A stretch of 64,000 nt of DNA from Chryseobacterium ureilyticum (lineage in GTDB: Bacteria; Bacteroidota; Bacteroidia; Flavobacteriales; Weeksellaceae). Position 1 is the stretch's first letter; each line of letters begins with the position of its first letter. Under the pieces are notes generated by a model. That model did not search any database, had not been told where the DNA came from, and was given only the letters and a program-made list of their open reading frames with translations. The stretch spans positions 248,001 to 312,000 of the forward strand of contig NZ_FTOL01000002.1 in NCBI RefSeq assembly GCF_900156735.1. Reading direction: 5' to 3'. Below, piece after piece: positions 5,695 to 52,347 of this stretch. Position numbers and translations under genes: made by a program.

Positions 5695-5739
5695 TTAAAA
5701 ATTGTTGTAAGAGAACAAAATCAAAATAAATAATACACG

Positions 5740-7263: not shown

Positions 7264-7282
7264 TTTCTTACTATAACAGATC

Positions 7283-7322
7283 TAAACCGAAAAGAATCCT
7301 TCTTTTCGGTTTATTTTTTTTC
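7283..7322 (+). terminator. Rho-independent terminator after OmpA paralogue 2
   Basis: Inverted repeat AAACCGAAAAGAA / TTCTTTTCGGTTT followed by a T-rich run. Confidence 0.85.
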
Positions 7323-7478
7323 TACTACGATTTTTTTTAACTACCTTTATATCATTTTCGGGGCAATAGGTACTGAATGAGCAACATACAGACCATATTA
7401 TTCTGAAAAAAATTAATACAAAATCACATTTCAACGTAAAAAATCATTTAAAATAACTTAACTTAAAAAAATAACACT

Positions 7479-8915
7479 ATGAAATTAAGTTTAGCAATTG
7501 TTGCATTTGCATTGGCTATTCCTACCGCCAGCTATGCACAAGACTCAACGGCAGTTTCAAATGGGACCTACCCTAATACGTTCTCGTCCGGGTCTGCCAA
7601 TGTTTCCCCATTCACCAGTCAATCCAAAAGATTTAATGACTGGTCTATTTCTGCTGGGGTTGGAGTTCCACTGATGCAATCATCAGATTTAACCTCTATC
7701 AAGAATGGTAACGGTAAAAACCTTTTTGGATATTCGGCTTATGTAAGTATTGATAAAGCAATCACTCATGCATTTGGGATCAATTTACAATACGACAGAG
7801 GTGAAACCAGACAAGGATGGTTCAATACTAAAGATGCTGCACCTGATGCTACGGCTGTAGGAGCAAGAACTCAGTATGATGCTATCTCACTTTTAGGAGA
7901 TGTTAACTTCTCTAACCTTTTGAGAAGAGTTGACAATCATTCTACGTACAGATGGGCTCTTCACGGTTATGCAGGTGTTGGTACAATTGCCTACAGAGCT
8001 TACCAGAAAGACATCAAGGGACAGAGATTAATGACTGAAGTTAAACCTTTCCAGTTAGGATCTATGTTTATGCAGGCTGGTGCAGGTTTGAAATTTAAAG
8101 TAAACAGAAGAATCGATATTGAAGGTAGATTAATGTATGTTGTAACCGGGGATGATGAATTCGATGGTGGTGGTGATGCATACAGCGCTATCAACAAGCG
8201 TTCGGAGCAGGTTTCTGACAATTTCTTCAATGCAACTTTAGGTCTTTCCTTAAAACTAGGAAAACATGAATCTCATGTAATGTGGCATGATCCACTTCAG
8301 GAAATCTATTACAAACTTGATGTTTTGGCTAACAAAAATCAGGATATTGAAGTATGTAAAAAAGGAGACGCTGATAATGACGGAGTATGTGATGATTGGG
8401 ACAGACAACTTGATACTCCTGCAGGTGCAAGAGTGGATGGTGCCGGAGTTGCTCTTGATACAGACTTAGATGGTGTTATTGATCTTTACGATAAATGTGT
8501 AACGGTTCCAGGACCTGTGGAAAACAATGGTTGTCCTACTACAACTACAGGACCTGTAGTGGAAACAGAAACTAAATTGGAAGGAATTGAATTTGATTTA
8601 AATTCAGACAGAATTTTACCATCAAACACTCCAATTCTAAACAACGCTGTAAATTACATCAATTCTTCAAACGGAGCTTATAACGTAATTGGTGCTACTG
8701 ATACAAGAGGTACTGATGCTTATAACCAAAAGCTATCTCAAAGAAGAGCAAACAATGTTAAAAATTATCTAATTAAAAATGGTGTTCAATCTGGTAAATT
8801 AAACGCAGTAGGTAAAGGTGAAAAAGACCTTAAATACCCAGAGTGTGAGCCAGCAACTAAATGCCCTGAATGGAAAAACAGAGCAAACAGAAGAGTTTAC
8901 TTTGAAGCTAAATAA
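7479..8915 (+). CDS. OmpA-family outer-membrane protein, paralogue 3
   Basis: 478 residues with the same plan as the preceding gene: signal peptide, barrel, TSP3-like linker and OmpA domain (about 366-478). The Asp/Arg pair for diaminopimelate binding is kept in GATDTRGTDAYNQKLSQRRA. The OmpA domain differs from paralogue 2: it has a Cys pair in YPECEPATKCPEWKNRANRR and no Lys-rich tail. Residues 1-355 differ from paralogue 2 at only scattered positions. The gene stands alone between two terminators, with about 215 bases of AT-rich upstream DNA that must hold its own promoter. Confidence 0.93.
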   Translation: MKLSLAIVAFALAIPTASYAQDSTAVSNGTYPNTFSSGSANVSPFTSQSKRFNDWSISAGVGVPLMQSSDLTSIKNGNGKNLFGYSAYVSIDKAITHAFGINLQYDRGETRQGWFNTKDAAPDATAVGARTQYDAISLLGDVNFSNLLRRVDNHSTYRWALHGYAGVGTIAYRAYQKDIKGQRLMTEVKPFQLGSMFMQAGAGLKFKVNRRIDIEGRLMYVVTGDDEFDGGGDAYSAINKRSEQVSDNFFNATLGLSLKLGKHESHVMWHDPLQEIYYKLDVLANKNQDIEVCKKGDADNDGVCDDWDRQLDTPAGARVDGAGVALDTDLDGVIDLYDKCVTVPGPVENNGCPTTTTGPVVETETKLEGIEFDLNSDRILPSNTPILNNAVNYINSSNGAYNVIGATDTRGTDAYNQKLSQRRANNVKNYLIKNGVQSGKLNAVGKGEKDLKYPECEPATKCPEWKNRANRRVYFEAK

Positions 8916-39800: not shown

Positions 39801-40048
39801 CCTCTTTTGCCTTCATTGTGGGTATGCTTCCTCTGGTTTGGACACAAGGTGCTTCTGCAAAAGGAAATCATTCCATCGGATACAGTACTGTAGGAGGAAT
39901 GCTCACAGGAGTAGTATTCGGGATTTTCATTATTCCGGTAATGTATGTTGTTTTCCAGTATCTGCATGAAAAAATGCCAAGCAGAAAGAAAAAAAGACTT
40001 CTGAAAAAACAAATGGAGGAAGAACTTTTAGCTTCAACGATTAATTAA
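36863..40048 (+). CDS. RND multidrug efflux pump, HAE1 family (AcrB/MexF-like)
   Basis: 1061 residues, the usual size. Twelve transmembrane segments and two large periplasmic loops. N-terminus MLKQFIERPVLSTVISIILLLLGALSLFNLPIALFPDIAPPSVQV is typical. The proton relay is present: the Asp pair in GIVVDDAIVVVEAV (about 406-408) and the Lys in GLLAKNAILIVEFAVQRRKAGRS (about 940). A short His-rich stretch (GEHGEHGHKKG, about 500) lies in the cytoplasmic loop between the two halves. It follows the adaptor by 141 bases and precedes the TolC-type gene, forming a tripartite drug or solvent exporter; the substrate is unknown. Confidence 0.97.
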   Translation: MLKQFIERPVLSTVISIILLLLGALSLFNLPIALFPDIAPPSVQVTAFYPGANAEVVARSVATPIEEAVNGVENMTYMTSNSSNDGTMTLSVFFKQGSDPDNAAVNVQNRVSKAMSQLPQEVVQAGISTQKVQNSMIMFMGLSSEDPKQYDELFLQNYLKINVIPQIQRIPGVAQAQVFGTRDYSMRIWLKPDRLAANNLSPQEVLNAIKDHNLEAAPGRLGQGSKETYEYILKYKGKLNKGEDYESIAIKANSDGSFLRLKDVARVEFGSYTYTATNRVDGKPVAGFAILQTAGSNANEILTEIEKQVKVMETSLPKGVKPIIMYNSKDFLDASIHQVVETLVIAFILVFIVVYIFLQDFRSTLIPAIAVPVAIIGTFFFLQLFGFSINMLTLFALVLAIGIVVDDAIVVVEAVHSKMEQTGMPVEHATMNSMSEISGAIISITLVMCAVFIPVGFMQGPAGVFYRQFAFTLAIAIMISAVNALTLSPALCALFLNDPQGEHGEHGHKKGFGARFFNAFNASFNNMTKKYIYSLKFLIKNKWVAIGGLVVITAVSIFMIKKAPSGFIPTEDQGFVLYAVNTPPGSSLERTHNATAQIDKIINGEKATNHLWVADGMNFISNANASPYSAGFIKLKDYDKRGEMKDPDQIAATLTGKVSQVKDANAFFFNFPTIQGFGNVSGFEFMLQDKTNGSFEQLGTTTQQFIGELMKRPEIAFAFTTYAAGNPQYTINVDTDKANQLGVSVTELMQTMQIYYGSSFVSDFNRFGKYYRVMAQADIPYRTDINSLEGIYVKNKSGEMVPAKTLVTLKRTFGPETVTRNNLFNAVTINGTPKPGYSTGDAIKAVEEVAKQSLPRGYGYEWTGITREEIKTGGQTTFIFLLSILFVYFLLAAQYESYILPFAIILTIPTGIFGVFAFTGLAGIDNNIYVQVGLIMLVGLLAKNAILIVEFAVQRRKAGRSLIESALQASRLRLRPILMTSFAFIVGMLPLVWTQGASAKGNHSIGYSTVGGMLTGVVFGIFIIPVMYVVFQYLHEKMPSRKKKRLLKKQMEEELLASTIN

Positions 40049-40183
40049 ATGATACAGAAGAAGGGTTTATAAATCACAAAATATTTTTAGAATAACACTT
40101 AAGTAATTTTAAACTTAAAAACATCTGTATAATCTGTGGTAGACAATAAACCTCAACATTATTTAAGTCATTAAACCAAAACT

Positions 40184-41596
40184 ATGAAAAGACTAAAAAA
40201 TATTATATTAACATTCGCCATAGCTTTAGGATCTGTTTCGTGTGTGTCAAAACTGGCATACGCGGAGCCAGATCTCCCGCTACCAGAAAAATTTCAGTAC
40301 ACAGCAACTGCTGATACAGCAAGTATTGCCAATCTGGAATGGAAACAGTTTTTCAACGATCCTATTTTACAGGAACTGATTGAAAAAGGAATTAAAAACA
40401 ATTATGATCTTCAGATTGCCTTAAAGCAGGTTGCTTCTTCACAGGAAAAACTGAAACAGGCAAAATATATGCAATATCCTGATGTTGGTTTTGGAGTAGC
40501 AGCTCAGATTTCAAAGCCTTCAAAAAACAGCATGAACGGACAAAGCTTGAATTTATTTTTAGGTCAAAGTCATGTTGAAGATTATAACGCAGCTTTTAAT
40601 TTATCATGGGAAGCAGACATCTGGGGAAAAATTAAAAACCAACAGGAAGTTTCAAGAATGCAATATCTGCAGACCTATGAAGGTTCAAAAGCTATTCAGA
40701 CACAAGTAGTAGCGGCAATTGCTCAAGGATATTACAACCTTTTGATGCTTGATAAACAATTAAGTATTGCAAAATCTAATTTAGAATTGAGTAATAACAC
40801 CTTGATGATCACACAAAAAATGTGGGAAAGCGGAGACACAACATCTTTGGGAGTGCAACAGGCTAGTGCTCAAAAGCAGGCAACAGAACTTCTGATTTCA
40901 CAATTGGAACAGAATATTGCCATACAGGAAAATGCTTTAAGTATCCTTGTTGGAGAAACCCCTAATAAAGTCAACAGAACTATCGAAATGTCTGACACTT
41001 CCTTACCTCAGAATATCATGGCTGGACTTCCCGCAGCAATGGTAAGCCGTAGACCGGATGTACGTCAGCAGGAATTGGTTCTACTGGAATCTAATGCCAT
41101 GGTTGGAATTGCACAGGCAAATATGTATCCTGCGTTAAAGATTACAGCCAACGGTGGAGTGAATTCTTTTAAAATTGATAACTGGTTTCAGATTCCGGCA
41201 TCATTATTTGGGTCTGTCTTAGGAGGAATTACACAACCTATTTTCCAGAAAAGACAACTGAAAACAGATTTTGAAGTAGCAAAAATTCAGAGAGAGAAAA
41301 ATGTATTAGCATTCCGTCAAGCAGTTTTAAATGCTGTAGGCGAAGTTTCTGATGCATTGGTTTCTAATGAAAATTTAAAAGTTCAGGAGCAAAAAGCAAA
41401 TGAGCAATCCACCACATTAAAAGATGGAATTAAAAGTGCACAACTTCTTTACAGAGGAGGTTCAGCCAATTATCTTGAAGTGATTACCGCACAAGGAAAT
41501 TCTCTTCAGGCAGAATTGAACCTTGCTTCCATTAAAAGACAAAGATTAAGCAGCATTGTAGATTTATACAGAGCGCTGGGCGGCGGTTGGAAGTAG
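40184..41596 (+). CDS. TolC/OprM-family outer-membrane efflux channel
   Basis: 470 residues. The N-terminus (MKRLKNIILTFAIALGSVSC) is a lipoprotein signal with Cys20, as in OprM/NodT. Two OEP repeats (about 60-260 and 275-465) contain the typical WKQFFNDPILQELIEKGIKNNYDLQIALKQV, NAAFNLSWEADIWGKIKNQQEVS, LPAAMVSRRPDVRQQELVL and LYRGGSANYLEVITAQGNSLQAEL segments. It forms the trimeric channel for the adaptor and pump upstream. The last gene of the operon, with its terminator reaching into the end of the convergent gene. Confidence 0.95.
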   Translation: MKRLKNIILTFAIALGSVSCVSKLAYAEPDLPLPEKFQYTATADTASIANLEWKQFFNDPILQELIEKGIKNNYDLQIALKQVASSQEKLKQAKYMQYPDVGFGVAAQISKPSKNSMNGQSLNLFLGQSHVEDYNAAFNLSWEADIWGKIKNQQEVSRMQYLQTYEGSKAIQTQVVAAIAQGYYNLLMLDKQLSIAKSNLELSNNTLMITQKMWESGDTTSLGVQQASAQKQATELLISQLEQNIAIQENALSILVGETPNKVNRTIEMSDTSLPQNIMAGLPAAMVSRRPDVRQQELVLLESNAMVGIAQANMYPALKITANGGVNSFKIDNWFQIPASLFGSVLGGITQPIFQKRQLKTDFEVAKIQREKNVLAFRQAVLNAVGEVSDALVSNENLKVQEQKANEQSTTLKDGIKSAQLLYRGGSANYLEVITAQGNSLQAELNLASIKRQRLSSIVDLYRALGGGWK

Positions 41597-41615
41597 TAAA
41601 TTTAATTATATTGTT

Positions 41616-41648
41616 TGAGATGCGGTCTTTAGGGACTGCATTTTTTAT
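41616..41648. terminator. Terminator overlapping the end of the LpxA-like gene
   Basis: Hairpin ATGCGGTC / GACTGCAT with one mismatch, then T. It ends the efflux operon and its 3' arm encodes the last codons of the minus-strand gene. Confidence 0.65.
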
Positions 41649-42258
41649 TTTGCTGAAGTACCTGTTCAACTAATTCTAATCTTTTAACAATCGTTTTTTT
41701 ATGTAAAATAGTTCCTGGAGATAGAACAGCATTGGCTCCAATTTTAGAATCATCCCCTACCAATGATCCAAATTTATGTATATCAGTATATATTACTTCA
41801 TCATTATAGATCACTGAAATATTTTTCTCTTCTCTTTCGTTAAAATGATTCGCGCAAATAGATCCTGCTTCAAAATTTACATTCTTACCAATAATACTAT
41901 TTCCAATATAATTAAAATGGGCTGTAGCAGAATGATCAAGAATTATAGATTGTTTAATTTCAGAACTTGGTCCAATATTTACAGATTTACCAAGAAATAT
42001 AGGTCCTCTCAAATAAGCATACGCTCCTACTCTACAATTTTCATTGATTATTATGGTTCCTTTTAGAATTGCCCCCTCTTCTATGTCTGCAGATTTATGA
42101 ATAGCAATATTTCCATTGATAATATAATTCTCTGATAAGGTTTTTAATTTTTCAATTAATAGTACATCTAACTGATTGGTTATTTCCCATGGAGATTTAT
42201 TTTTGGTGTTAAAGACTTCAGCATCGAAATCACTTATAAAATCCTTTACTTCAATCAT
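41629..42258 (-). CDS. LpxA-like left-handed beta-helix protein (nucleotidyltransferase-like fold)
   Basis: 209 residues. After a short N-terminal helical part (1-50; ITNQLDVLLIEKLKTLSENYIING) come hexapeptide repeats (about 52-190; IHKSADIEEGAILKGTIIINENCRVGAYAYLRGPIFLGKSVNIGPSSEIKQSI...), with VGDDSKIGANAVLSPGTIL at the C-terminal end. This is the fold of LpxA/GlmU-C acyltransferases, and related proteins are annotated LpxA-family transferase. The His usually catalytic may be in ILDHSATAHFNYIGNS, but no specific function can be given. It lies 4 bases after miaA and is co-transcribed with it. Confidence 0.8.
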   Translation of the reverse strand: MIEVKDFISDFDAEVFNTKNKSPWEITNQLDVLLIEKLKTLSENYIINGNIAIHKSADIEEGAILKGTIIINENCRVGAYAYLRGPIFLGKSVNIGPSSEIKQSIILDHSATAHFNYIGNSIIGKNVNFEAGSICANHFNEREEKNISVIYNDEVIYTDIHKFGSLVGDDSKIGANAVLSPGTILHKKTIVKRLELVEQVLQQNKKCSP

Positions 42259-42262
42259 AATA

Positions 42263-43192
42263 TTACTGCTTTGTTAGTTTTATCTGAGTTAATATATATT
42301 CAATCAATTGGACATAATCCTCTTGAGAATATCCAACTTGTAAATAATGAATATCATCAGCCTTCCTATACCATGTCAATTGACGTTTGGCATATCGACG
42401 GCTGTTCTTTTTAATCTCAGAAACGGCAAAATCAAGATCCCATTCTCCATCAAAGTATTTGAATAATTCAGAATAACCAACCGTATTCAAAGCAGTCAAT
42501 CCTTTGAATTTCTCTAAGCCCCTCACTTCATCCAAAAGCCCCTTTTCCATCATAATATCAACTCTTCGGTTGATTCTGTCATACAATTCTTCTCTTGGTG
42601 CTTCAATCCCTATTCTAATCACATTGAAATCTCTGGAATCCTGGGAAACAGCAATCTGTTCAGAATATTTTTTATCCGTTTGCCAGATAACATCTATAGC
42701 ACGTAAAAGTCTTCGGTGGTTGTGAATATCCACCACTCCGAAATACTCAGGATCTAATTCTTTTAAAATTTCCTGAAGTTTTTCTATTCCTTCCTCATCC
42801 ATGATATTCTGAAGTTTCTCCTGATTTTCAATATCAGCTTCAGGCAGATCATTCAGTCCTTCAATCACTGCTTTTTCATACATCATACTTCCGCCAACAA
42901 GAATGACGGTATCATGATTTTGGAAAAGTTCATTAAGTTTTTTCAGGGCATCTTCTTCATATTGCCCGATGGAATAGTATTCTTCTACGGAAAGATTTCC
43001 GATAAAATGATGAGGTGCTTCAGCCAGCTCCTCGTCAGAAGGTGATGCTGTTCCAATTTTCATTTCCTTAAAAAACTGTCTGGAATCACAGGAAACAATC
43101 TCAGTGTTGAAATGTTTTGCCAGATCAATTGCCAGTTTTGTTTTACCAATTCCGGTGGGTCCTACTACAGAAATTAAATTTTTCTTTTTCAC
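42263..43192 (-). CDS. miaA: tRNA dimethylallyltransferase
   Basis: 309 residues, GTG start. Transfers a dimethylallyl group to A37 of tRNAs reading UNN codons. P-loop VVGPTGIGKTKLAIDLAKHF at 9-28, then EIVSCDSRQFFKEMKIGTASPSDEE (DSxQ motif), PHHFIGNLSVEEYYSIGQYEEDA, the VGGSMMYEKAVIEGLNDLP motif and the C-terminal NSRRYAKRQLTWYRK (about 270-285). Length is normal. The ATG form is not available at the family N-terminus (MKKKNLISVVG), so GTG is the start. The 287 bases between it and yicC hold only the two promoters' DNA. Confidence 0.96.
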   Translation of the reverse strand: MKKKNLISVVGPTGIGKTKLAIDLAKHFNTEIVSCDSRQFFKEMKIGTASPSDEELAEAPHHFIGNLSVEEYYSIGQYEEDALKKLNELFQNHDTVILVGGSMMYEKAVIEGLNDLPEADIENQEKLQNIMDEEGIEKLQEILKELDPEYFGVVDIHNHRRLLRAIDVIWQTDKKYSEQIAVSQDSRDFNVIRIGIEAPREELYDRINRRVDIMMEKGLLDEVRGLEKFKGLTALNTVGYSELFKYFDGEWDLDFAVSEIKKNSRRYAKRQLTWYRKADDIHYLQVGYSQEDYVQLIEYILTQIKLTKQ

Positions 43193-43454
43193 AGCGCTAA
43201 TTTACAAAAATGGGTTTATTTCAATTTTTATTTTTAAATACAAAAAGCTACGAATTGTTTTGAACCATTCAAATTTCAATGAAGAAGTTGAGAATATTAA
43301 GATAAACTTCCCTTTTAGCATAATGCTTATAAAAATCTATCCGATTTTTTTCTTAATTAAACTTAACGGCTTAAATATTTTTCAAAGTTTAAAATTAAAT
43401 AACCAGAACCTTTATGTTGAAATTTCATTGTATTACATTATACACTTAAATGTT

Positions 43455-43462
43455 TATCTTTG
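43455..43462 (+). promoter_or_regulatory. -7 element TATCTTTG before yicC
   Basis: Perfect TAnnTTTG, 17 bases before the yicC ATG. Confidence 0.6.
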
Positions 43463-43479
43463 TAGAACAATAAAAAACT

Positions 43480-44337
43480 ATGATTTTATCAATGACCGGC
43501 TTCGGTAGAGCCGAAGGTGTTTTTGAAGGAAAAAAAATAACAATAGATATTAAATCACTGAACAGCAAGAGCTTTGATTTAAATATTAAAATTCCTTTAC
43601 GTTACAAAGAAAAAGAATTTGAGATCAGAAAAATTCTTAATGATAGAATTATCCGTGGAAAAGTAGACTGCTACGTAAACCTGGAAAACCTTGAAGAATC
43701 TAATGATGTGAAAATTAATAAAAGTTTAATTGATTCTTACATCAAGGAGCTTAAAAATATTGCATCAGACGGACCTGATTTCGAATATCTTAAAATGGCA
43801 GTAAGAATGCCTGATGCTATTACCTCAAGACCTGATGAACTGACAGAAGGTGAATGGGAATCTTTGGCACAGATTGTCAATGCTGCTGTTGATCGATTTG
43901 AAGAATTCAGAAAGACTGAAGGAAGTATTCTGCATGAAGAATTAAACAGAAATATTCAGAATATAGACAAATATCTTGGTGAAGTGATTCCTTTCGAAGA
44001 AGAAAGAATTGTAAGCGTTAAAGAACGTTATCAGAAGTCTCTGAAAGAATTTGAAAATGTAGATGAAACCCGTTTCTATCAGGAAATGGCTTATTTCACT
44101 GAGAAACTTGATATTTCAGAAGAAAAAGTAAGACTTACTCAGCATTTGAAATACTATAAGGAAGTAATGGATAATGAATCTTTCAACGGAAAAAAACTGG
44201 GCTTTATTTCTCAGGAAATCGGAAGAGAGATCAATACATTAGGTTCCAAAGCCAATCATGCCGAAATTCAGAAACTGGTTGTGAAGATGAAGGATGATTT
44301 GGAAAAAATTAAAGAACAAACGTTAAACGTGTTATAG
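43480..44337 (+). CDS. YicC/YloC-family endoribonuclease
   Basis: 285 residues, starting with the family hallmark MILSMTGFGRAEG. Conserved parts: EIKSLNSKSFDLNIKIPLRYK (here DIKSLNSK), the central helical region, and the C-terminal GKKLGFISQEIGREINTLGSKANHAEIQKLVVKMKDDLEKIKEQTLNV, which is the DUF1732 end. YicC-type proteins were shown in E. coli and Bacillus to be RNA-cleaving enzymes involved in small RNA turnover. Gene order yicC-gmk is conserved in many bacteria and is found here (81 bases apart). Confidence 0.95.
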   Translation: MILSMTGFGRAEGVFEGKKITIDIKSLNSKSFDLNIKIPLRYKEKEFEIRKILNDRIIRGKVDCYVNLENLEESNDVKINKSLIDSYIKELKNIASDGPDFEYLKMAVRMPDAITSRPDELTEGEWESLAQIVNAAVDRFEEFRKTEGSILHEELNRNIQNIDKYLGEVIPFEEERIVSVKERYQKSLKEFENVDETRFYQEMAYFTEKLDISEEKVRLTQHLKYYKEVMDNESFNGKKLGFISQEIGREINTLGSKANHAEIQKLVVKMKDDLEKIKEQTLNVL

Positions 44338-44418
44338 TTTCAGGGAACGAAATCTTTGGGTACAATTATCATATAAAGGTAATTCCCAGCTCGAACCCTA
44401 AGCTCGAAACTCAAAAAT

Positions 44419-44982
44419 ATGGATAAAGTAATTATATTTTCAGCGCCATCTGGAAGCGGAAAAACTACATTGGTAAAACATTCTCTGGAAACATTTCCTG
44501 AACTTTCATTTTCAATTTCCTGTACGACAAGACAGCCAAGAGGAAGTGAAATTCATGCCGTGGATTATCATTTTTTATCACCTGATGAATTCAGACAAAA
44601 AATTTCAGAAGATGCATTTGTAGAATATGAAGAAGTATATACTGACAAATATTATGGTACTTTAAAATCTGAAGTAGAAAAAATCTGGAATCTGGGAAAA
44701 GTTGTTATTTTTGATGTAGATGTAAAAGGAGGAATTTCCTTAAAAAAATACTTCGGAGAAAAGGCTTTATCTATTTTTATAGAACCGCCTTCCATTGAAG
44801 AATTGGAACGAAGATTGATTTCAAGGAATACAGATGATGCAGAAACCATCAAAACCCGTGTAGCAAAAGCAGAAGAAGAACTGACCTATGCCAGCGAGTT
44901 TGACAAGATTGTTATAAACACCGATCTGGATGTAGCTAAAAAAGAAATAGAAAGTTTAATAAAAAGTTTTATCAATAATTAA
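44419..44982 (+). CDS. gmk: Guanylate kinase
   Basis: 187 residues. Phosphorylates GMP to GDP with ATP. The P-loop IFSAPSGSGKTTLVKH (5-20), GMP-binding residues in ISCTTRQPRGSEIHAVDYHFLS and YGTLKSEVE, the DVDVKGGISLKKYF strand, and the LID region RRLISRNTDDAETIKTRVAKAEEEL are all present. It follows yicC. The spacer before it (44338-44418) and after it (44983-45086) contains repetitive words (TCTAACTTCTAATTTCTAAC). Confidence 0.96.
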   Translation: MDKVIIFSAPSGSGKTTLVKHSLETFPELSFSISCTTRQPRGSEIHAVDYHFLSPDEFRQKISEDAFVEYEEVYTDKYYGTLKSEVEKIWNLGKVVIFDVDVKGGISLKKYFGEKALSIFIEPPSIEELERRLISRNTDDAETIKTRVAKAEEELTYASEFDKIVINTDLDVAKKEIESLIKSFINN

Positions 44983-44995
44983 TGGCTGGAAAATG

Positions 44996-45062
44996 AGGTC
45001 AGAGGATGCAAGTAATGTACTTTCATCAATATCTAACTTCTAATTTCTAACCTCTATTCTGA
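44996..45062. repeat. Degenerate intergenic repeat of CTAACTTCTAA words
   Basis: TATCTAACTTCTAATTTCTAACCTCTA between gmk and nadA. Related text lies at 20235-20299 (TATAACTTCTAAAT ... CCAGCTTCTAACTTCTAAT) and, weaker, 44381-44413. No gene is visible. Confidence 0.35.
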
Positions 45063-45086
45063 TAATAAAAAAACATTGAGGTTGAT

Positions 45087-46106
45087 ATGAGTACCGAAAC
45101 ATTAGAAAAAGCTAAATCTGCAATTCCTGTAAAAGGATTTCTGGATATAAAAGATATAGCCATTCCTCAGGGAGAAGAATTGGTAAAAGCCATTCTTAAA
45201 CTTAAGGAAGAGAAAAACGCTGTAATTCTTGCCCATTATTACCAACCGGGAGAAATTCAGGATATCGCAGATTTTCTTGGGGATTCTCTGCAATTGGCAA
45301 GACAGGCAAAGGAAACCAACGCTGATATGATTGTATTCTGCGGAGTACATTTCATGGCAGAAGCAGCAAAGATCCTTAACCCAACTAAAAAAGTAGTTTT
45401 ACCTGATACCATGGCTGGATGCTCTCTTGCAGACGGCTGCTCAGGAGAAGGATTAAGAAAAATGCGTGAACAGCACCCTAATGCTTTAATTGCAACATAC
45501 ATCAATTGTAATGCAGAAACAAAAGCAGAAAGTGATATTATCGTAACAAGCTCAAACGCTGAAACTGTAATTGAAGCTCTACCAACAGACAGACCCATCA
45601 TTTTTGCGCCCGATAAAAACCTTGGAAGATATTTATCTAAAAAGACAGGTCGCGATATGATTCTTTGGGATGGTAGCTGTGTGGTACACGAAGCGTTTTC
45701 AATGGAAAGAATTGCTCAGCAGTTAGCAGATAATCCGGATGCAAAACTGATTGCACACCCAGAAAGTGAAGAAGCAGTTTTAAAGCTTGCTCACTTCATT
45801 GGTTCTACTTCCGCCCTATTGAATTTTGTAGAAAAAGATGACTGTCAGAAATTCATCATTGCTACAGAAGAAGGAATCCTTCACGAAATGAGAAAACGTG
45901 CTCCACACAAGGAGTTGATTCCTGCTTTAGTTTTTGATGAAAGCTGTAACTGTTCAGAATGCTTCTATATGAAACGTAATACAATGGAAAAATTGTACTT
46001 ATGTATGAAATATGAGCTTCCTGAAATTCTTATCGACGAAGAATTAAGATTAAAAGCATTGAAACCTATTGAGGCTATGCTTGATCTTTCTAAAAGCATA
46101 AAATAA
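45087..46106 (+). CDS. nadA: Quinolinate synthase NadA
   Basis: 339 residues. Condenses iminoaspartate and dihydroxyacetone phosphate into quinolinate for NAD synthesis, using a [4Fe-4S] cluster. Three cluster Cys candidates: Cys85 in MIVFCGVHFMAEAAK, one in WDGSCVVHEAFS (about 199) and one in ESCNCSECFYMKRNTMEKL (about 288-293). The substrate motif LAHYYQPGEIQDIADFLGDSLQLA (about 48-71) and PDKNLGRYLSKKTGRD are also conserved. Normal length for the short family. nadB and nadC are not in the window. Confidence 0.96.
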   Translation: MSTETLEKAKSAIPVKGFLDIKDIAIPQGEELVKAILKLKEEKNAVILAHYYQPGEIQDIADFLGDSLQLARQAKETNADMIVFCGVHFMAEAAKILNPTKKVVLPDTMAGCSLADGCSGEGLRKMREQHPNALIATYINCNAETKAESDIIVTSSNAETVIEALPTDRPIIFAPDKNLGRYLSKKTGRDMILWDGSCVVHEAFSMERIAQQLADNPDAKLIAHPESEEAVLKLAHFIGSTSALLNFVEKDDCQKFIIATEEGILHEMRKRAPHKELIPALVFDESCNCSECFYMKRNTMEKLYLCMKYELPEILIDEELRLKALKPIEAMLDLSKSIK

Positions 46107-46162
46107 TTTCTTTTTGCTTTCAAATATTTTTTATATTTAGGATTCAAACTAATAATAAAAAT

Positions 46163-46321
46163 ATGAGAAATTTAAAGAAATTAAACAGAGAAAGTCTTAA
46201 AAATGTAAACGGTGGATCGGAAAGCTGTAGCTACTGTGGAATACGTGAAATTTGCGCCATAGGATGCTATGGTCAACCAATATGTCTCCCAAAAGGACCA
46301 TACTTCCCTACTGACTGTTAA
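46163..46321 (+). CDS. Bacteriocin-like double-glycine peptide A
   Basis: 52 residues, MRNLKKLNRESLKNVNGG leader followed by a 34-residue core (SESCSYCGIREICAIGC..., ending FPTDC) with six Cys (22, 25, 31, 35, 41, 52). The leader matches the K-L-x-R-E-x-L-K-x-V-N-G-G pattern of peptides called bacteriocin-like in Chryseobacterium. Such leaders are normally cut after GG by a C39 peptidase-ABC exporter, but none is in the window. The gene is on the + strand after nadA and ends at its own terminator. Too short for usual gene finders. Confidence 0.8.
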   Translation: MRNLKKLNRESLKNVNGGSESCSYCGIREICAIGCYGQPICLPKGPYFPTDC

Positions 46322-46323
46322 AA

Positions 46324-46357
46324 AATAAAGCACTGTTTTTACAGTGCTTTTTTATTT
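46324..46357 (+). terminator. Terminator after peptide A
   Basis: Hairpin AAAGCACTGT / ACAGTGCTTT plus T run; also convergent with peptide B on the other strand. Confidence 0.8.
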
Positions 46358-46375
46358 CCGATAAACAGATACTTT

Positions 46376-46579
46376 TTAAGATACTCCGCCATCCATACAC
46401 TCAATACTTACAATTACACATGCTTTGCAGTATAAAGGAAGTGCCTGATATGCACTGCAAGGAGCATCATTAGGTCCGGTTCCATAAGTAGTATTTCTTG
46501 GACATCTATTACAGTTTGATCCTATTGCTCCGTTTACTTCTCCAAGCTCTTTTCTATTTAATTTCTTTAAATTTTTCAT
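46376..46579 (-). CDS. Bacteriocin-like double-glycine peptide B
   Basis: 67 residues; leader MKNLKKLNRKELGEVNGA with Gly-Ala in place of Gly-Gly (residues 17-18). The core has six Cys at 23, 26, 41, 51, 54 and 61, spacing C-x2-C-x14-C-x9-C-x2-C-x6-C, and shares with peptides C and E a YG-x-GP turn, an S/C-x-(F/Y)-x-x-L-P block and an (E/D)C end. Function unknown. It is on the minus strand, 30 bases after peptide C, so B and C may share a transcript. Confidence 0.8.
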   Translation of the reverse strand: MKNLKKLNRKELGEVNGAIGSNCNRCPRNTTYGTGPNDAPCSAYQALPLYCKACVIVSIECMDGGVS

Positions 46580-46609
46580 AGTAGTTTTAATTTTTTGATG
46601 TTAATATTT

Positions 46610-46822
46610 TTATCTGTTATAAAAGTCAGAATAATCAGGACCATAGCAATCTGCGCTTACATCTACACAGTTTCTGCATTCAGGTGATAATCCCCAAAAG
46701 CTCATACAGCTATAAGTGTATTCAGGACCATCACCATAGTTTCCAGAAGTTGAACATCTGCCGCACCCATTCATTTGAGCACCTTTGATCATTTTAAGTT
46801 TTGTTCTTGATATTTTTTTCAT
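46610..46822 (-). CDS. Bacteriocin-like double-glycine peptide C
   Basis: 70 residues; leader MKKISRTKLKMIKGA (Gly-Ala end, shorter than in the others), core with six Cys at 20, 23, 39, 49, 52 and 59, spacing C-x2-C-x15-C-x9-C-x2-C-x6-C, nearly the same as peptide B. Shared blocks: NYGDGPEYTYSC, SFWGLSPECRNCV and VSADC. The tail YGPDYSDFYNR is extra. Function unknown. Confidence 0.78.
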   Translation of the reverse strand: MKKISRTKLKMIKGAQMNGCGRCSTSGNYGDGPEYTYSCMSFWGLSPECRNCVDVSADCYGPDYSDFYNR

Positions 46823-46869
46823 AATGCTTATTTTTAAAATTAAGTTTGATACAGCTATCCCGTCTTTAC

Positions 46870-47049
46870 TTACAGCATTGGATCATAACATGTTCCTCCC
46901 GGTTTTAATGAGCATCCCCATGCCGTTGATCCGCCTCCTCTCATAAAACATACATATTGCTCCCCACCACAAGTATCAATCTGAAACTGTGTAAAACCAC
47001 CATTGACACTTTTCTGTTGTTCTCTTGATAATTTTTTAATTGCTTTCAT
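46870..47049 (-). CDS. Bacteriocin-like double-glycine peptide D
   Basis: 59 residues, shorter than the usual reporting cutoff but clear: leader MKAIKKLSREQQKSVNGG (GG at 17-18) and a core FTQFQIDTCGGEQYVCFMRG... with four Cys (27, 34, 46, 54). It is a different core from B, C and E and contains a Gly-rich stretch (MRGGGSTAWGC). On the minus strand between peptides C and E, 47 bases upstream of C. Confidence 0.75.
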   Translation of the reverse strand: MKAIKKLSREQQKSVNGGFTQFQIDTCGGEQYVCFMRGGGSTAWGCSLKPGGTCYDPML

Positions 47050-47073
47050 ATTATTTTAATTTTGATGTTATAA

Positions 47074-47108
47074 ATAAAAAGCACTGTTATACAACAATGC
47101 TCTTATAT
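47074..47108 (-). terminator. Imperfect terminator hairpin after peptide E
   Basis: Minus strand: AGCATTGTT loop AACAGTGCT with one mismatch then T-rich; similar to the terminator after peptide A, as expected if the units are duplicates. Confidence 0.5.
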
Positions 47109-47112
47109 ATTA

Positions 47113-47307
47113 TTAAAAAGGTTCAAAGCATTCCATGCTTGCCAATACTCTACGTTTACAGCATTCTGGCAAACCGTGAAACTCTGCACATGATTTCGGC
47201 TGATTTGGTCCATAAGGTCCTTCCGGACAATTTTCATTACAATCCCAAATTCCTCCTCCATTAATGGCTTTCAAGTTTTCTCTTTTAATCTTTTTTGAAT
47301 TTTTCAT
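47113..47307 (-). CDS. Bacteriocin-like double-glycine peptide E
   Basis: 64 residues; leader MKNSKKIKRENLKAINGG (GG at 17-18, third Gly at 19). The core has six Cys at 23, 27, 40, 49, 50 and 60. Aligned with B and C through YGPNQPKSC, EFHGLPEC and SMEC, the second Cys of the C-x2-C pair is Arg here, and an extra Cys sits just before the first, so the total stays at six. A promoter-like TTTG-18-TACTTTTA (47334-47363, minus strand) lies upstream. Function unknown. Confidence 0.8.
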   Translation of the reverse strand: MKNSKKIKRENLKAINGGGIWDCNENCPEGPYGPNQPKSCAEFHGLPECCKRRVLASMECFEPF

Positions 47308-47333
47308 GGTTTTTATTTTTAATTTAACATTAT

Positions 47334-47363
47334 AAAAGTAAGATTTTTAATCAATTATACAAA
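47334..47363 (-). promoter_or_regulatory. Promoter of peptide E
   Basis: Minus strand TTTG (47360-47363), 18-base spacer, TACTTTTA (47334-47341), the latter one base from TAnnTTTG. Confidence 0.45.
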
Positions 47364-47406
47364 CTATTTCTCCTAAAAAGGATTTATTATTTTATTATGT
47401 TAAAAG

Positions 47407-47436
47407 TTGGCTATTCCGAAATAATTTGTACATTTG
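47407..47436 (+). promoter_or_regulatory. Promoter of the threonine operon
   Basis: -33 TTGG at 47407-47410, 18-base spacer, perfect -7 TACATTTG at 47429-47436. Transcription should begin about 47439, only a few bases before the leader peptide ATG. Confidence 0.65.
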
Positions 47437-47446
47437 TTTCGTTACA

Positions 47447-47548
47447 ATGAATTTTCTAAGAAACATATCTGATATTTCTGCCCTGAAACTACCTATTTCA
47501 GGCATATCTTCTGTTTCTACATTCACAACTACAACGACTACCCCATAA
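47447..47548 (+). CDS. Threonine operon leader peptide
   Basis: 33 codons from ATG to TAA. The C-terminal part encodes S-T-F followed by six consecutive Thr codons and Pro; four Ile also occur (positions 7, 10, 17, 20). It lies just downstream of the promoter and about 95 bases before thrA. A run of codons for the end-product amino acid, followed by hairpins and a T run, is the arrangement of a translation-coupled attenuator, as in E. coli thrL, although the peptide itself is unrelated. Confidence 0.8.
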   Translation: MNFLRNISDISALKLPISGISSVSTFTTTTTTP

Positions 47549-47622
47549 AGGGGTAAATTTTCACATATTATTTCCGGTGCCCTGTACTCTTTTTTTAAAG
47601 AGTAACACTTTCATTTTTTCCT
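47539..47622 (+). promoter_or_regulatory. Threonine operon attenuator hairpins
   Basis: A hairpin TACCCC / GGGGTA (47539-47555) spans the leader stop codon. A second, TACTCTTT / AAAGAGTA (47585-47604), precedes a T-rich run (TTTCATTTTTTCC). A third small one, CTGAAA / TTTCAG (47483-47501), is inside the leader peptide. The first and second suit ribosome-controlled alternative folding and termination; exact alternative pairing was not computed. Confidence 0.55.
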
Positions 47623-47641
47623 AACCTCAAATCAATAATTG

Positions 47642-50092
47642 ATGAAAATTTTAAAATTCGGCGGTACATCAGTCGCCAATTCTCAGAATATTCTTTTAGT
47701 AGAGAACATTATAAAAAAAGAGTCTTCAAAAGACAGAGTTGCAGTCATTGTATCAGCACTTCATGGAGTAACAGATCTACTCATTCAAGGTGCTGAAAAT
47801 GCTTCTGAAAAAAATGGCAGCTATCTTCAAAAACTTAAAAGCATTGAAGAAAAACATTTACAACTTGTTAAAGAGCTTATCCCTATTTCTGAACAAAGTT
47901 CCTTACTAAGTTTTGTTAAAAAACACTGTAATGATATTGAAGATTTGTACAACGGGATCTATGTTCTTGGTGAACTTACAGACAGAATAAAGGATAAAAT
48001 TGCTTCTTATGGAGAATTCTTATCGTCGAATATTATTGCAGCAAGGCTTCAGCATCAAAGCTTAGATTGCGTATGGATGAATTCTTCAGAGCTTATAAAA
48101 ACTAATAGCAATTTTACCAATGCAAAAGTAAACTTTGACCTTACTGAAGATAACATTAGCAAATATTTTGATCAGTACCAAAACCAAATCATCATTGGTC
48201 CTGGATTCATCGCATCTGATGATCAAAACCATATAACAACACTGGGACGAGGCGGTTCAGATTATACTGCGGCAATTATCGCAGCAGCAGTAAACGCTAA
48301 AGAGCTTCAGATCTGGACAGATGTAAGTGGAATGATGACTGCAGATCCTCGCTTAGCCTCTCATGCTAAACCTATTGCAGAAATATCTTATCATGAAGCT
48401 ATGGAGTTGTCACATTTTGGAGCAAAAGTTATTTATCCGCCTTCAATTCAACCGGTGATGATAAAAAACATTGATCTTAAAATCAAAAATACTTTCGAAC
48501 CTGAAGAATTGGGAACATTAGTTTCTCATAATTTGAACATTTCCGAAAAAGAAAAGCAACAGCTTGTTGTAGGGATTTCAAATATGGGTAATATTGCTTT
48601 GCTTACTCTTGAAGGCAGCGGAATGGTTGGAATTCCCGGAATTTCGGCTAAGCTTTTCCAATGCCTGAGCAATGAAAAAATTAATGTTATTCTGATTACA
48701 CAAGGATCTTCTGAACATTCAATTACTATTGCTATTCATGAGAAAGATATGTTGGCAGCAGAAAATGCAATCAATGTTTCCTTTGCAGATGATATTCAAT
48801 TAAAAAGAGTTGCTCCTGTTAATATTGAAACCGGTCTTTCCATTCTTGCATTGGTTGGAGAAAATATGAAAAGCAGAAGTGGTGTAAGCGCTAAAATGTT
48901 TAGTTGTTTAGGTAATAATGGAATCAACATAAGAACTATTGCGCAAGGCTCTTCCGAAAGAAACATCAGTGTTGTTATTTCTGAAAATGATGCTAAAAAA
49001 GCGGTAAATGTTCTTCATGAAGAATTTTTTGAATCCGAAATAAAACAAATCCATCTTTATATCTGTGGAACCGGAAATGTAGGAAACAAACTTATTGAGC
49101 AGATTTACGAGCAGAATCAATACTTAAGGGAAAATCATCTCATTAACTTAAGAATTGCCGGGATTTCCAACAGCCGAAAAATGTTTTTTGCGGACAGAGG
49201 AATTTCTAAAGATGAATATTCTAAATGGAATGAACTTGGAAAAGAAGCCTCAGCAAAAGGTTTTGCGAAAGAAATTATATCCCGAAATCTCAGAAATTCT
49301 GTTTTTGTTGACATCACAGCAAGCGCGGAAGTTCCGGAAGTTTATGAAAGTTTATTAAAAAGAAGCATCAATATTGTAGCCTGTAATAAAATTGCAGCCT
49401 CATCCGATTTTGAACAGTATAAAATTTTAAAAAACACCGCAAGAAATCATAATTGCAGCTTTCATTTTGAAACCAACGTAGGCGCAGGGCTTCCTGTGAT
49501 AGGAACAATAAATGATCTTATCAAAAGTGGAGACAAAATAACTTCCATTGAAGCCGTACTAAGCGGAACACTAAATTTTGTATTCAATAATTATGACGGA
49601 AGTAGAACATTTTCTGAAGTAGTAGCCCAGGCTCAAAAAGAAGGATATACAGAACCGGACCCAAGATTAGATTTATCCGGAACTGATGTGGCTCGTAAGA
49701 TTTTGATTCTTGCCAGAGAAGCCGGTTATCCGCTACAGTTTGAAGAAATTGAAAACATTGGATTTTTACCTGAAGCTTGTATGCAGGGCAGTGTAGAACA
49801 TTTCTATGAAAAACTTACGGAATATGAAGATCATTTTAAAGCCTTGTTTTTAAATGCTCAGAAAGACGGGAAAATATTGAAATATACCGCTGAGTTTAAA
49901 GATGGTAAAGCAAAAGTAGGCTTACAGCACATTGCTCCGGGAAACGATCTATTCCATCTTTACGGGAAAGACAATATTATTATTTTTAAAACATTAAGAT
50001 ACTCCGAACAGCCATTGGTGATAAAAGGAGCCGGTGCTGGAGCTGAAGTAACCGCAAGCGGCATTTTTGCAGATATTATTCGTTCAATTTAA
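47642..50092 (+). CDS. thrA: Bifunctional aspartate kinase / homoserine dehydrogenase I
   Basis: 816 residues from the ATG at 47642; a TTG one codon earlier is less likely. The N-terminal kinase starts MKILKFGGTSVANSQNI and has GRGGSDYTAAIIAAAVNAKELQIWTDVSGMMTADPR (about 200-235). Two ACT domains follow (about 315-460; VGISNMGNIALLTLEGSGMVG and ILALVGENMKSRSGVSAKMFSCLGNNGINI). The C-terminal homoserine dehydrogenase (about 465-816) has CGTGNVGNKLIEQI, IVACNKIAASS, FHFETNVGAGLPVIGTINDLIKSGDKI and the GYTEPDPRLDLSGTDVARKILILAREAG signature. It catalyses the first and third steps from aspartate to threonine and is likely feedback-inhibited by threonine. Confidence 0.97.
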   Translation: MKILKFGGTSVANSQNILLVENIIKKESSKDRVAVIVSALHGVTDLLIQGAENASEKNGSYLQKLKSIEEKHLQLVKELIPISEQSSLLSFVKKHCNDIEDLYNGIYVLGELTDRIKDKIASYGEFLSSNIIAARLQHQSLDCVWMNSSELIKTNSNFTNAKVNFDLTEDNISKYFDQYQNQIIIGPGFIASDDQNHITTLGRGGSDYTAAIIAAAVNAKELQIWTDVSGMMTADPRLASHAKPIAEISYHEAMELSHFGAKVIYPPSIQPVMIKNIDLKIKNTFEPEELGTLVSHNLNISEKEKQQLVVGISNMGNIALLTLEGSGMVGIPGISAKLFQCLSNEKINVILITQGSSEHSITIAIHEKDMLAAENAINVSFADDIQLKRVAPVNIETGLSILALVGENMKSRSGVSAKMFSCLGNNGINIRTIAQGSSERNISVVISENDAKKAVNVLHEEFFESEIKQIHLYICGTGNVGNKLIEQIYEQNQYLRENHLINLRIAGISNSRKMFFADRGISKDEYSKWNELGKEASAKGFAKEIISRNLRNSVFVDITASAEVPEVYESLLKRSINIVACNKIAASSDFEQYKILKNTARNHNCSFHFETNVGAGLPVIGTINDLIKSGDKITSIEAVLSGTLNFVFNNYDGSRTFSEVVAQAQKEGYTEPDPRLDLSGTDVARKILILAREAGYPLQFEEIENIGFLPEACMQGSVEHFYEKLTEYEDHFKALFLNAQKDGKILKYTAEFKDGKAKVGLQHIAPGNDLFHLYGKDNIIIFKTLRYSEQPLVIKGAGAGAEVTASGIFADIIRSI

Positions 50093-50102
50093 AAACATAA
50101 AT

Positions 50103-51023
50103 ATGAAAAAAGTAAAACTAAAAATCCCGGCTACTGTAGCTAATCTTGTTTGTGGGTTTGATATTCTGGGTATGGCAATTCATGAGCCTTATGATGAAAT
50201 GGAGATCGGATTACTGGAAACTCCTGAGGTTATTATAAAACATAAAGATCAGTTCGGACTTCCTGAAGAACCGTCTAAAAATGTTGCAGGGATTGTGCTT
50301 TTAAAAATCCAGGAGCATTTTAACTTACAAACCGGTTTTGAAGTTATCATTCATAAACATATAAAACCAGGTAGCGGGCTCGGCTCCAGTGCGGCTAGCG
50401 CCGCCGGAGCCGCACTGGGAGCTAATATTGTACTAGAAAATATCATGTCAAAAGATGAGATGGTACATTTCGCCATGTTTGGAGAAGAACTTGCCTCGGG
50501 AGTGCGGCATGCCGACAATATTGCACCTTGTATTTATGGAGGAATTACGTTAGTAAAATCAACAAGTCCAATAGATATTATTCCTTTGAACTCCCCCGAT
50601 TTGTTTGTAACAGCAGTACATCCTCAGGTAGAAGTAAAAACATCCGATTCAAGACAGATACTCAAAAAAAATATCACTTTAAAAAGTGCAGTTGAACAAT
50701 GGGGAAATATTGCCGGACTGGTAGCCGGAATTCAGAAAAATGATTTTGCACTGATCGGAAGAAGTCTAAATGATGTCATTATAGAACCTGTACGAAGTAT
50801 TTTAATTCCTGGATTTGATGACGTTAAAAGGAAAAGTCTTGAAATGGGAGCTCTTGGTGGTGGAATTTCAGGATCAGGACCTTCTATCTTCATGTTAGCA
50901 GAACAAAAGGAAACTGCTGAAAAAATTGCAGCACTTATGAAATCAATATATGATGAAATGAAGATCGAAAGCTTTGTATATGTTTCAAAAATAAATCCAG
51001 TCGGGATTGAAATCATTGAATAA
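50103..51023 (+). CDS. thrB: Homoserine kinase
   Basis: 306 residues, GHMP kinase fold. The start is ATG at 50103, 10 bases after thrA; an earlier in-frame codon would overlap thrA. N-terminus KKVKLKIPATVANLVCGFDILGMA is typical of the family (P-A-T-x-A-N-x-x-x-G-F-D). The phosphate loop HIKPGSGLGSSAASAAGAALGAN is at about 82-104, and the late GGGISGSGPSIFMLAE glycine motif at about 259. It phosphorylates homoserine for threonine synthase. Around the phosphate loop, the bases GGCTCCGGC are unusually GC-rich with a long inverted repeat, a codon-level feature only. Confidence 0.95.
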   Translation: MKKVKLKIPATVANLVCGFDILGMAIHEPYDEMEIGLLETPEVIIKHKDQFGLPEEPSKNVAGIVLLKIQEHFNLQTGFEVIIHKHIKPGSGLGSSAASAAGAALGANIVLENIMSKDEMVHFAMFGEELASGVRHADNIAPCIYGGITLVKSTSPIDIIPLNSPDLFVTAVHPQVEVKTSDSRQILKKNITLKSAVEQWGNIAGLVAGIQKNDFALIGRSLNDVIIEPVRSILIPGFDDVKRKSLEMGALGGGISGSGPSIFMLAEQKETAEKIAALMKSIYDEMKIESFVYVSKINPVGIEIIE

Positions 51024-51042
51024 CCTAATCACATTAAAACAA

Positions 51043-52347
51043 ATGAAATACTATAATTTAAAGGACAGTCAGGAACAAGTTAATTTCAAGACTGCAACCA
51101 TAAAAGGACAAGGTAAAGACAAAGGATTATTTTTCCCTGAAAACATTCCCCAATTTGATGAAAAATTCATTCAGAATCTTTCACAGTATTCTGATGAAGA
51201 GATCGCTTACCAATGCATGAGAAGTTTTATTAATGATGAAATTCCTTCAGAAGTATTAAAAAACATTATTACTGAAACCATTAGCTTTGATATTCCATTG
51301 AAAAAAATAAATGATAAAATATCAATTCTGGAACTTTTTCATGGTCCTACCCTAGCCTTTAAAGATATTGGCGCAAGATTCATGAGCAGATGTTTATCTT
51401 ACTTTTTAAAAGATCAGGATAAGAAAGTTACTGTCCTTGTAGCTACTTCAGGTGATACAGGTGGTGCTGTTGCAGATGGTTTCTACAATCTTCCCGGAAT
51501 TGATGTTGTGATTCTATATCCTAAAAACAGAGTAAGCCCCGTACAGGAAAAACAACTTACTGCATTGGGAAAAAATATTTATGCACTGGAAGTTAACGGA
51601 AGTTTTGATGATTGTCAGAGTTTAGTAAAACAGGCTTTTTCTAACGAAGAAATCAACAGTCAGTTGTTTTTAACATCCGCCAATTCAATCAATATTGCAA
51701 GATGGCTTCCTCAGCAAATCTATTATTTATTAGCTTTAAAGCAATGGCAGCAATTAGAAAAAGAATTACCCGTAATATGCGTTCCAAGCGGGAATTTCGG
51801 AAATATCTGTGCCGGGCTTCTGGCTCATGTACGAGGTCTTCCGGCTGAGCATTTTATTGCAGCCTGTAATTCTAATGATATTATCCCTCAATATTTCAAA
51901 ACAGGGAATTTTAATCCTAAAAAAGCTGTTGCCACTTTATCTAATGCGATGGATGTAGGAGATCCCAGTAATTTTGTAAGAATTCTGGAACTTTTCAATA
52001 ATGAATTTGATGCTTTAAAAAATAAAATTTCAGCATGCACTATTGATGATCAAAAAACCATGCAGACAATTACGGATGTTTATGAAAAACACCAATATAT
52101 TCTTGATCCGCACAGTGCTGTTGCATTTGCTTCATTAGAGCAATATCTTAAAGAAAATCCAGGTAAAAAAGGATTCATTTTAGGAACAGCTCACCCAGTA
52201 AAATTCCCTGAGGCAGTAGAAAAAGCCGTTAAAACAAAAATTGAGATCCCTGCATCTCTTAATGATCTGATGAAAAAGGAGAAAAAAACTATTGAAATAA
52301 ATTCAGATTTTGAAGAATTAAGACGATTTTTGCTTAGTAAAAATTAG
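51043..52347 (+). CDS. thrC: Threonine synthase
   Basis: 434 residues, PLP enzyme of the fold-type II family. The start is ATG at 51043 (MKYYNLKDSQEQVNFKTA); an in-frame codon upstream overlaps thrB. The PLP lysine is in LFHGPTLAFKDIGARFM (about 111-118). ATSGDTGGAVADGF (about 138) is the phosphate-binding motif, and SANSINIARWLPQQIYYL and CVPSGNFGNICAGLLA are also conserved. Length and order suit the longer (yeast-E. coli type) class. It converts phosphohomoserine to threonine, last gene of the operon, with folB only 5 bases after it. Confidence 0.96.
   Translation: MKYYNLKDSQEQVNFKTATIKGQGKDKGLFFPENIPQFDEKFIQNLSQYSDEEIAYQCMRSFINDEIPSEVLKNIITETISFDIPLKKINDKISILELFHGPTLAFKDIGARFMSRCLSYFLKDQDKKVTVLVATSGDTGGAVADGFYNLPGIDVVILYPKNRVSPVQEKQLTALGKNIYALEVNGSFDDCQSLVKQAFSNEEINSQLFLTSANSINIARWLPQQIYYLLALKQWQQLEKELPVICVPSGNFGNICAGLLAHVRGLPAEHFIAACNSNDIIPQYFKTGNFNPKKAVATLSNAMDVGDPSNFVRILELFNNEFDALKNKISACTIDDQKTMQTITDVYEKHQYILDPHSAVAFASLEQYLKENPGKKGFILGTAHPVKFPEAVEKAVKTKIEIPASLNDLMKKEKKTIEINSDFEELRRFLLSKN

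Follow-up and report, generated by a model that had tools for sequence, protein, structure and literature searches.

Double-glycine leaders with hydrophobic positions, a C39 exporter and an HlyD adaptor characterize the class II bacteriocins and microcins that leave the cell through peptidase-containing ATP-binding cassette (ABC) transporters (PCATs). The C39-like domain of HlyB has lost the proteolytic cysteine (Cys), and in VKOR-thioredoxin fusions of the Synechococcus type a VKOR part with loop and CxxC cysteines is followed by a thioredoxin-fold domain. For the bacteroidetocins, the original report describes a GG peptide, a thiol oxidoreductase, a five-transmembrane (TM) protein and a PCAT, with no evident immunity gene, and a toxin activity that is attenuated after deletion of the thiol oxidoreductase or the TM protein gene (Coyne et al. 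2019, PMC6671954). Here we present an analysis of five small peptide genes in a 64,000-nucleotide stretch of the Chryseobacterium ureilyticum genome (the window, which lies on contig C7), of the Cys-rich double-glycine peptides to which they belong, and of a locus on another contig, C14, with the order 502-residue membrane oxidase, GG peptide, PCAT and HlyD. Overall, we see about an even chance that the peptides form a repertoire of disulfide-bonded mini-proteins, served in trans by this one locus and most likely antibacterial. What is new is a repertoire that would be served in trans, together with its exporter-oxidase locus. The repertoire itself, its synteny, the selection on it, the parity of its Cys, the co-occurrence with the locus, the domains of the proteins and the predicted C39 fold were computed directly, whereas export, oxidation, leader binding by the C39-fold domain and an antibacterial role are inferred.

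The peptides have in common with the bacteroidetocins the Bacteroidetes host, a short leader with its cut at GG, a C39-ABC exporter, the absence of an evident immunity gene and Cys-rich cores, bacteroidetocins A and B having four Cys (PMC6671954). As described there, each bacteroidetocin has its own four-gene unit, whereas here dozens of scattered peptides would share one locus. The adjacency of peptide, thiol oxidoreductase, TM protein and PCAT is absent from the window cluster, and C14 shows an analogous arrangement in which a single protein unites the redox parts with a predicted C39-fold domain; the comparison is one of gene content. Unlike class II bacteriocins, the window peptides would have their exporter in trans, and they lack the class IIa YGNGV motif (named in PMC6671954), with YGTGP, YGDGP or YGPNQ instead. 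None reaches the gathering cut-off (27.1) of Pfam PF10439 Bacteriocin_IIc, one (peptide A below) scoring 15.2 bits and the other four giving no match, and no immunity gene is evident beside the cluster among open reading frames (ORFs) of at least 30 residues. The C14 oxidase differs from the Synechococcus-type fusion by an additional N-terminal C39-fold domain without the catalytic Cys and by its linkage to a peptide exporter. In its predicted C39 fold without a proteolytic Cys this domain is like that of HlyB (3zua, VIA Z 9.4), which is however fused to an ABC transporter and not to an oxidase.

Five window genes within a genome-wide repertoire

The cluster consists of five short ORFs within 46163-47307, one on the plus and the remaining four on the minus strand, located between genes that we take to be nadA (45087-46106) and the aspartokinase-like thrA (47639 onward). 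All five lie exactly where the initial annotation had placed them, and they are real genes. Their leaders were scored with NF047798 (leader_Chryseo, NCBIfam), a model that spans only the 18-position leader and has a curated cut-off of 23.5 bits. Peptide A (46163-46321, plus strand) has 52 residues with six Cys, and its leader (46163-46216) ends in GG and scores 32.3 bits. On the minus strand, peptide B (46376-46579; 67 residues, six Cys in the CxxC form) has a leader at 46579-46526 that ends in GA and scores 30.8 bits. Peptide C (46610-46822, minus; 70 residues, also six Cys in the CxxC form) has a shortened leader at 46822-46778, again ending in GA, whose 13.1 bits stay below the cut-off; it nevertheless aligns with B across leader and core, and its core groups with B. 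Peptide D (46870-47049, minus; 59 residues) has four Cys and a GG leader at 47049-46996 (31.1 bits), and peptide E (47113-47307, minus; 64 residues) has six Cys in a CC form and a GG leader at 47307-47254 (26.8 bits). With A, B, D and E above the cut-off, the proposed class of double-glycine leaders on Cys-rich cores is supported. That the family is known merely as bacteriocin-like agrees with the entry name, 'bacteriocin-like protein'; neither an exporter nor an oxidase is mentioned in the entry as displayed.

The spacings initially given for B (C-x2-C-x14-C-x9-C-x2-C-x6-C) and for C (the same with x15) are correct. Peptide E reads C-x3-C-x12-C-x8-C-C-x9-C, and as proposed the second Cys of its middle pair is Arg and an extra Cys stands just before the first; the YGxGP block assigned to B, C and E fails in E, which has YGPNQ. 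A search of the B/C/E core family against PDB gave nothing credible (best E-value 0.34), and a relative of solved structure was rejected for these cores.

At E<=1 the model matches 55 leaders in the whole genome (5.18 Mb in 27 contigs), spread over 10 of the contigs, and 32 of them are above the cut-off. In 14 control genomes the model gives no match at E<=0.001; at E<=1 weak matches appear in two of the 14, none above the cut-off. The leaders of the window peptides are beyond chance. We read 45 of the 55 peptides, namely all 32 above the cut-off and 13 below. An even Cys count, as expected for intramolecular disulfides, is found in 44 of them (20 with four, 20 with six, three with eight and one with two), and the remaining one has five; the binomial p of 2.6e-12 holds if draws are independent, which paralogues are not. 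The leaders end in GG (34), GA (4), GS (4) or otherwise (3). The window five belong to a genome-wide set of at least 45 scattered Cys-rich double-glycine peptides, and disulfides in these peptides are highly likely.

We then consider the relatives beside nadA. We located this gene in 30 same-genus genomes and, within 1.5 kb to either side, collected ORFs that carry a GG-like leader site together with at least four Cys. There are 60 of them, distributed over 24 of the 30 loci, and in every one the number of Cys is even (six in 57, four in three). The GG/GA/GS site, whose lack of conservation would have spoken against the initial annotation, is kept in these relatives, the ORF filter itself having required such a site. 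Pooled ratios of nonsynonymous to synonymous substitution (dN/dS) for leader and core are 0.26 and 0.27 in the A-type group (five genes), 0.12 and 0.22 in the E-type group (18 genes), and 0.24 and 0.30 in the B-type group (14 genes, two of them from the window), own genes being included each time; the values for E and B are rough, the synonymous sites of these two groups being close to saturated (proportion of synonymous differences 0.55-0.66), which weakens the case for constraint. Groups A, B and E, to which the estimates apply, are under purifying selection, with dN/dS of 0.12-0.30. In the D group two members matched the pattern, and D-like genes adjoin nadA in seven other genomes. The nadA-flanking peptides are genes, and old ones. 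The CC form occurs in 18 genes at 17 loci and the CxxC form in 14 genes, counts that show only the recurrence of both since the groups were chosen by those same motifs; six further B-like peptides outside the pattern have CxxC (five) or C-x4-C (L096). Because both forms recur in other species, the 'moved' Cys of peptide E is neither a fresh swap nor peculiar to this genome.

The candidate exporter-oxidase locus

Two C39-peptidase ABC transporters are encoded in the genome (C39 domains at E<=0.01), one on C14 and one on C12, in accordance with the initial annotation, which saw none in the window; for the exporter that it asked about there is now a strong candidate, located elsewhere on the genome. 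The C14 PCAT has a Peptidase_C39 domain (126.5 bits), an ABC membrane domain (111.3) and an ABC ATPase (103.5), all above cut-off. Among 59 Chryseobacterium loci of named records read by script, the PCAT lies downstream of the oxidase in 58, and at least one GG-leader ORF lies between the two in 33. The best named match of the oxidase is in C. artocarpi, with 98% identity. Among the listed matches from open-licence PMC, no title or abstract opening describes such an exporter-oxidase locus or a C39-VKOR fusion. The second PCAT, with HlyD, is on C12 (L034:6969-13317) near a LicD-family gene. As a separate observation, L261 (2337-5478) holds an oxidase paralogue split into 285 and 220 residues beside a grasp-with-spasm-like maturase, the latter scoring 133.9 bits, below its own cut-off of 175; a similar two-piece oxidase match is found in seven relatives.

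The oxidase has three parts: an N-terminal C39-fold domain without the catalytic Cys, a VKOR part (residues 146-270; 34.8 bits against a Pfam cut-off of 27.5) and a DsbA-like thioredoxin (Thioredoxin_4, residues 345-494; 42.3 bits against 23.2). Six redox Cys are invariant in all 55 oxidases compared: the loop pair 175/187, the CxxC at 254/257 and the CGFC at 366/369. The model of the full protein has a mean predicted local distance difference test (pLDDT) of 69, and Foldseek finds DsbA-like proteins with it. The first 120 residues modelled alone give a best AlphaFold model with pLDDT 79 and a predicted template modelling score (pTM) of 0.69, whose ten top Foldseek rows are all C39 peptidases or C39-like domains; besides 3zua, VIA matches PCAT1 (Z 11.3) and the complex of LahT150 with a leader (Z 10.8). 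The fold predicted for this N-terminal part is that of C39. The own oxidase has no Cys before residue 175, nor has the majority consensus of 42 N-domains, so the domain should not cut; this dead C39 domain probably binds leaders.

The presence of leaders, oxidase and exporter was compared in 98 same-genus genomes, with leaders scored at E<=0.001, and in 148 genomes of the family, where any oxidase match at E<=1e-8 was counted. Within the genus, 91 of the 98 genomes have leaders (median 24 over all 98, maximum 48 per genome) and 96 have C39 domains. An oxidase match of at least 47% identity is found in all 91 leader-bearing genomes, versus two of the seven leaderless ones (Fisher p 3e-7); in the family, 31 genomes have both, two the leader only, six the oxidase only and 109 neither (Fisher p 1.4e-23), both tests ignoring shared ancestry, which counts against reading these values at full weight. 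Four of the seven leaderless genus genomes lack both the oxidase and a close PCAT. Exactly one C39 domain, always of the C14 type (88-95% identity), is present in 23 leader-bearing genomes with 1-42 leader peptides; if that gene exports them, a single exporter is enough for as many as 42 peptides. The suggestion that peptide copy number tracks an exporter gene did not hold: without correction the Spearman rho is 0.40, but leader number itself rises with genome size (rho 0.80), and given genome size the partial r is 0.04 (p=0.72). Copy number was rejected as an exporter proxy because the correlation vanishes under this control. The presence of the locus, with one exporter and oxidase, tracks with leaders; exporter number does not.

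Proposed mechanism and competing explanations

In the mechanism that we propose, the C14 locus would serve the repertoire in trans. Its PCAT would bind the common leader, cut after GG, GA or GS, and export the core with the HlyD adaptor; export of the peptides by this PCAT is very likely. The dead C39-fold domain of the oxidase would probably bind the same leader as the PCAT, and the VKOR and DsbA-like thioredoxin parts would introduce two to four disulfides, oxidation of the peptides by this protein being likely. The mature mini-proteins would then most likely act outside the cell as antibacterials without a dedicated immunity gene, an activity suggested by analogy with the bacteroidetocins and held tentatively, at a little less than an even chance. 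A bolder form of the argument, leader-addressed oxidative folding in Chryseobacterium and relatives, is slightly more doubtful than not: a dead C39 domain on a VKOR-DsbA protein would read the exporter's leader, dozens of unrelated Cys-rich cores would be oxidised and exported through one gate by a 15-23-residue tag, and part of the repertoire would be switched by the DUF805b RNA considered below. If true, the annotation 'bacteriocin-like protein', which carries no function, would become testable across the entire repertoire, disulfide-rich peptides could be produced with a genetically encoded tag, and an orphan candidate RNA element would gain a gene context.

Several observations weigh against this proposal. 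Only two of the five AlphaFold models of the N-domain are above pLDDT 70, and HHalign links this domain only weakly to the C39 domain of the PCAT (probability 8%). The oxidase topology has five clear helices and one weak, and the alternatives put the active site on opposite sides; the counts of Lys and Arg (5.1 and 2.0 in the Cys loops; 0, 1.0 and 0 in the other three) give no preference for the usual periplasmic active site. Three of the 91 oxidase matches are imperfect, those of G038 and G063 containing stops and that of G088 covering 373 of 502 residues, and G038 has 42 leaders despite its interrupted oxidase. Conversely, in the L257-L259 set, G029 and G090 keep oxidase and PCAT although they show no leader match at E<=0.001; G053 also lacks leaders, and there the PCAT is accompanied by an oxidase match of only 24% identity. 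In the family sample, a weak leader match without the oxidase occurs in G113 and G198, and some of the 31 genomes with both depend on fragments or on matches of 24% identity (G100, G152, G216). The cores are kept between species, which is less typical of strain-specific bacteriocins.

Among the alternatives, the conserved cores may also suit cell-to-cell signals that share the same export and oxidation and are sensed by receptors of kin without killing. Double-glycine peptides do include signals of the ComC/Blp type, the cores are under purifying selection, and neither the window cluster nor, among ORFs of at least 90 residues, where smaller ones could be missed, three further clusters have an evident immunity gene alongside. 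Since the bacteroidetocins have no evident immunity gene either, its absence here does not exclude killing. The ORF lists that lack immunity genes show no evident histidine kinase or receptor either, no family scan of the neighbours having been made, and dozens of different cores in a single genome would be a large number for signals, so that we consider signalling unlikely. Equally unlikely in our judgement are extracellular inhibitors or host-directed knottin-like mini-proteins aimed at proteases, channels or eukaryotic cells. The sister peptide L045 (C7 669664-669816), with a C-C-CC-C-C frame, has a cystine-knot match in PDB (E-value 0.014 to an engineered EETI-II), but this match is weak, an unrelated protein ranks higher at 0.01, and the B/C/E family has no credible match there at all. 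Handling of the peptides by another exporter, either the C12 PCAT with its HlyD or one of a non-C39 type, is very improbable, for the C12 PCAT adjoins a papain-like (Peptidase_C39_2) protein that has a GG-like leader of its own, and the 23 leader-bearing genomes with a single C39 domain have the C14 type only. Finally, a decaying duplicate array without product, to which the shortened leader of peptide C and the copy numbers differing between species could point, is still less probable given the selection on leader and core of A, B and E and the even Cys count in all 60 filtered nadA-flanking peptides.

Regulatory elements and other features

We also report an RNA element near some members of the repertoire. 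A 21-nt block common to the upstream regions of some sister peptides is DUF805b (RF02914 in Rfam). It is present in 31 of 40 genomes, the reversed control giving no match, and a GG-leader-like ORF follows within 60 nt at 27 of the 29 block sites read (one per genome). With the RF02914 model, 59 of 60 genomes have a match, and such an ORF follows in 19 of 30 sites (the best per genome; two sites are unplaceable). Leaderless genomes such as G011 and G057 are among the 59, so the occurrence of the element extends beyond these peptides. The own genome holds 11 sites above the gathering score. As judged by eye, five precede GG-leader Cys peptides, one with a leader ending in AG, at C3:685, C3:24673, C7:669837, C12:143015 and C12:572557 (loci L266, L270, L265, L267 and L263); three others precede small Sec-type Cys proteins and three precede other genes. 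DUF805b ends about 20 nt upstream of the GG-leader Cys peptides, both at the own sites and in relatives (L197-L256). As a regulator of the five window genes it was rejected, there being no RF02914 match at E<=1 in window positions 40000-52000. Among the listed open-licence PMC matches, no title or abstract opening describes DUF805b beside peptide genes.

A possible promoter of peptide E (TTG ... TAnnTTTA, minus strand, 47333-47362) fits weakly what we take to be the flavobacterial-type consensus, and the motif is absent upstream of A, B, C and D. It stands upstream of six of the 45 own peptide genes against a null mean of 1.8 (standard deviation 1.3, maximum 7), so weak a result that a shared promoter motif was set aside. 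In addition, two further clusters of peptides with four or six Cys, at L040 (C8, about 900 kb) and L039 (C12, about 185 kb), have a longer leader variant that scores below the NF047798 cut-off. Elsewhere in the window, 4579-8915 holds three tandem genes, presumably OmpA-like, the final two of which are near-identical along much of their length.
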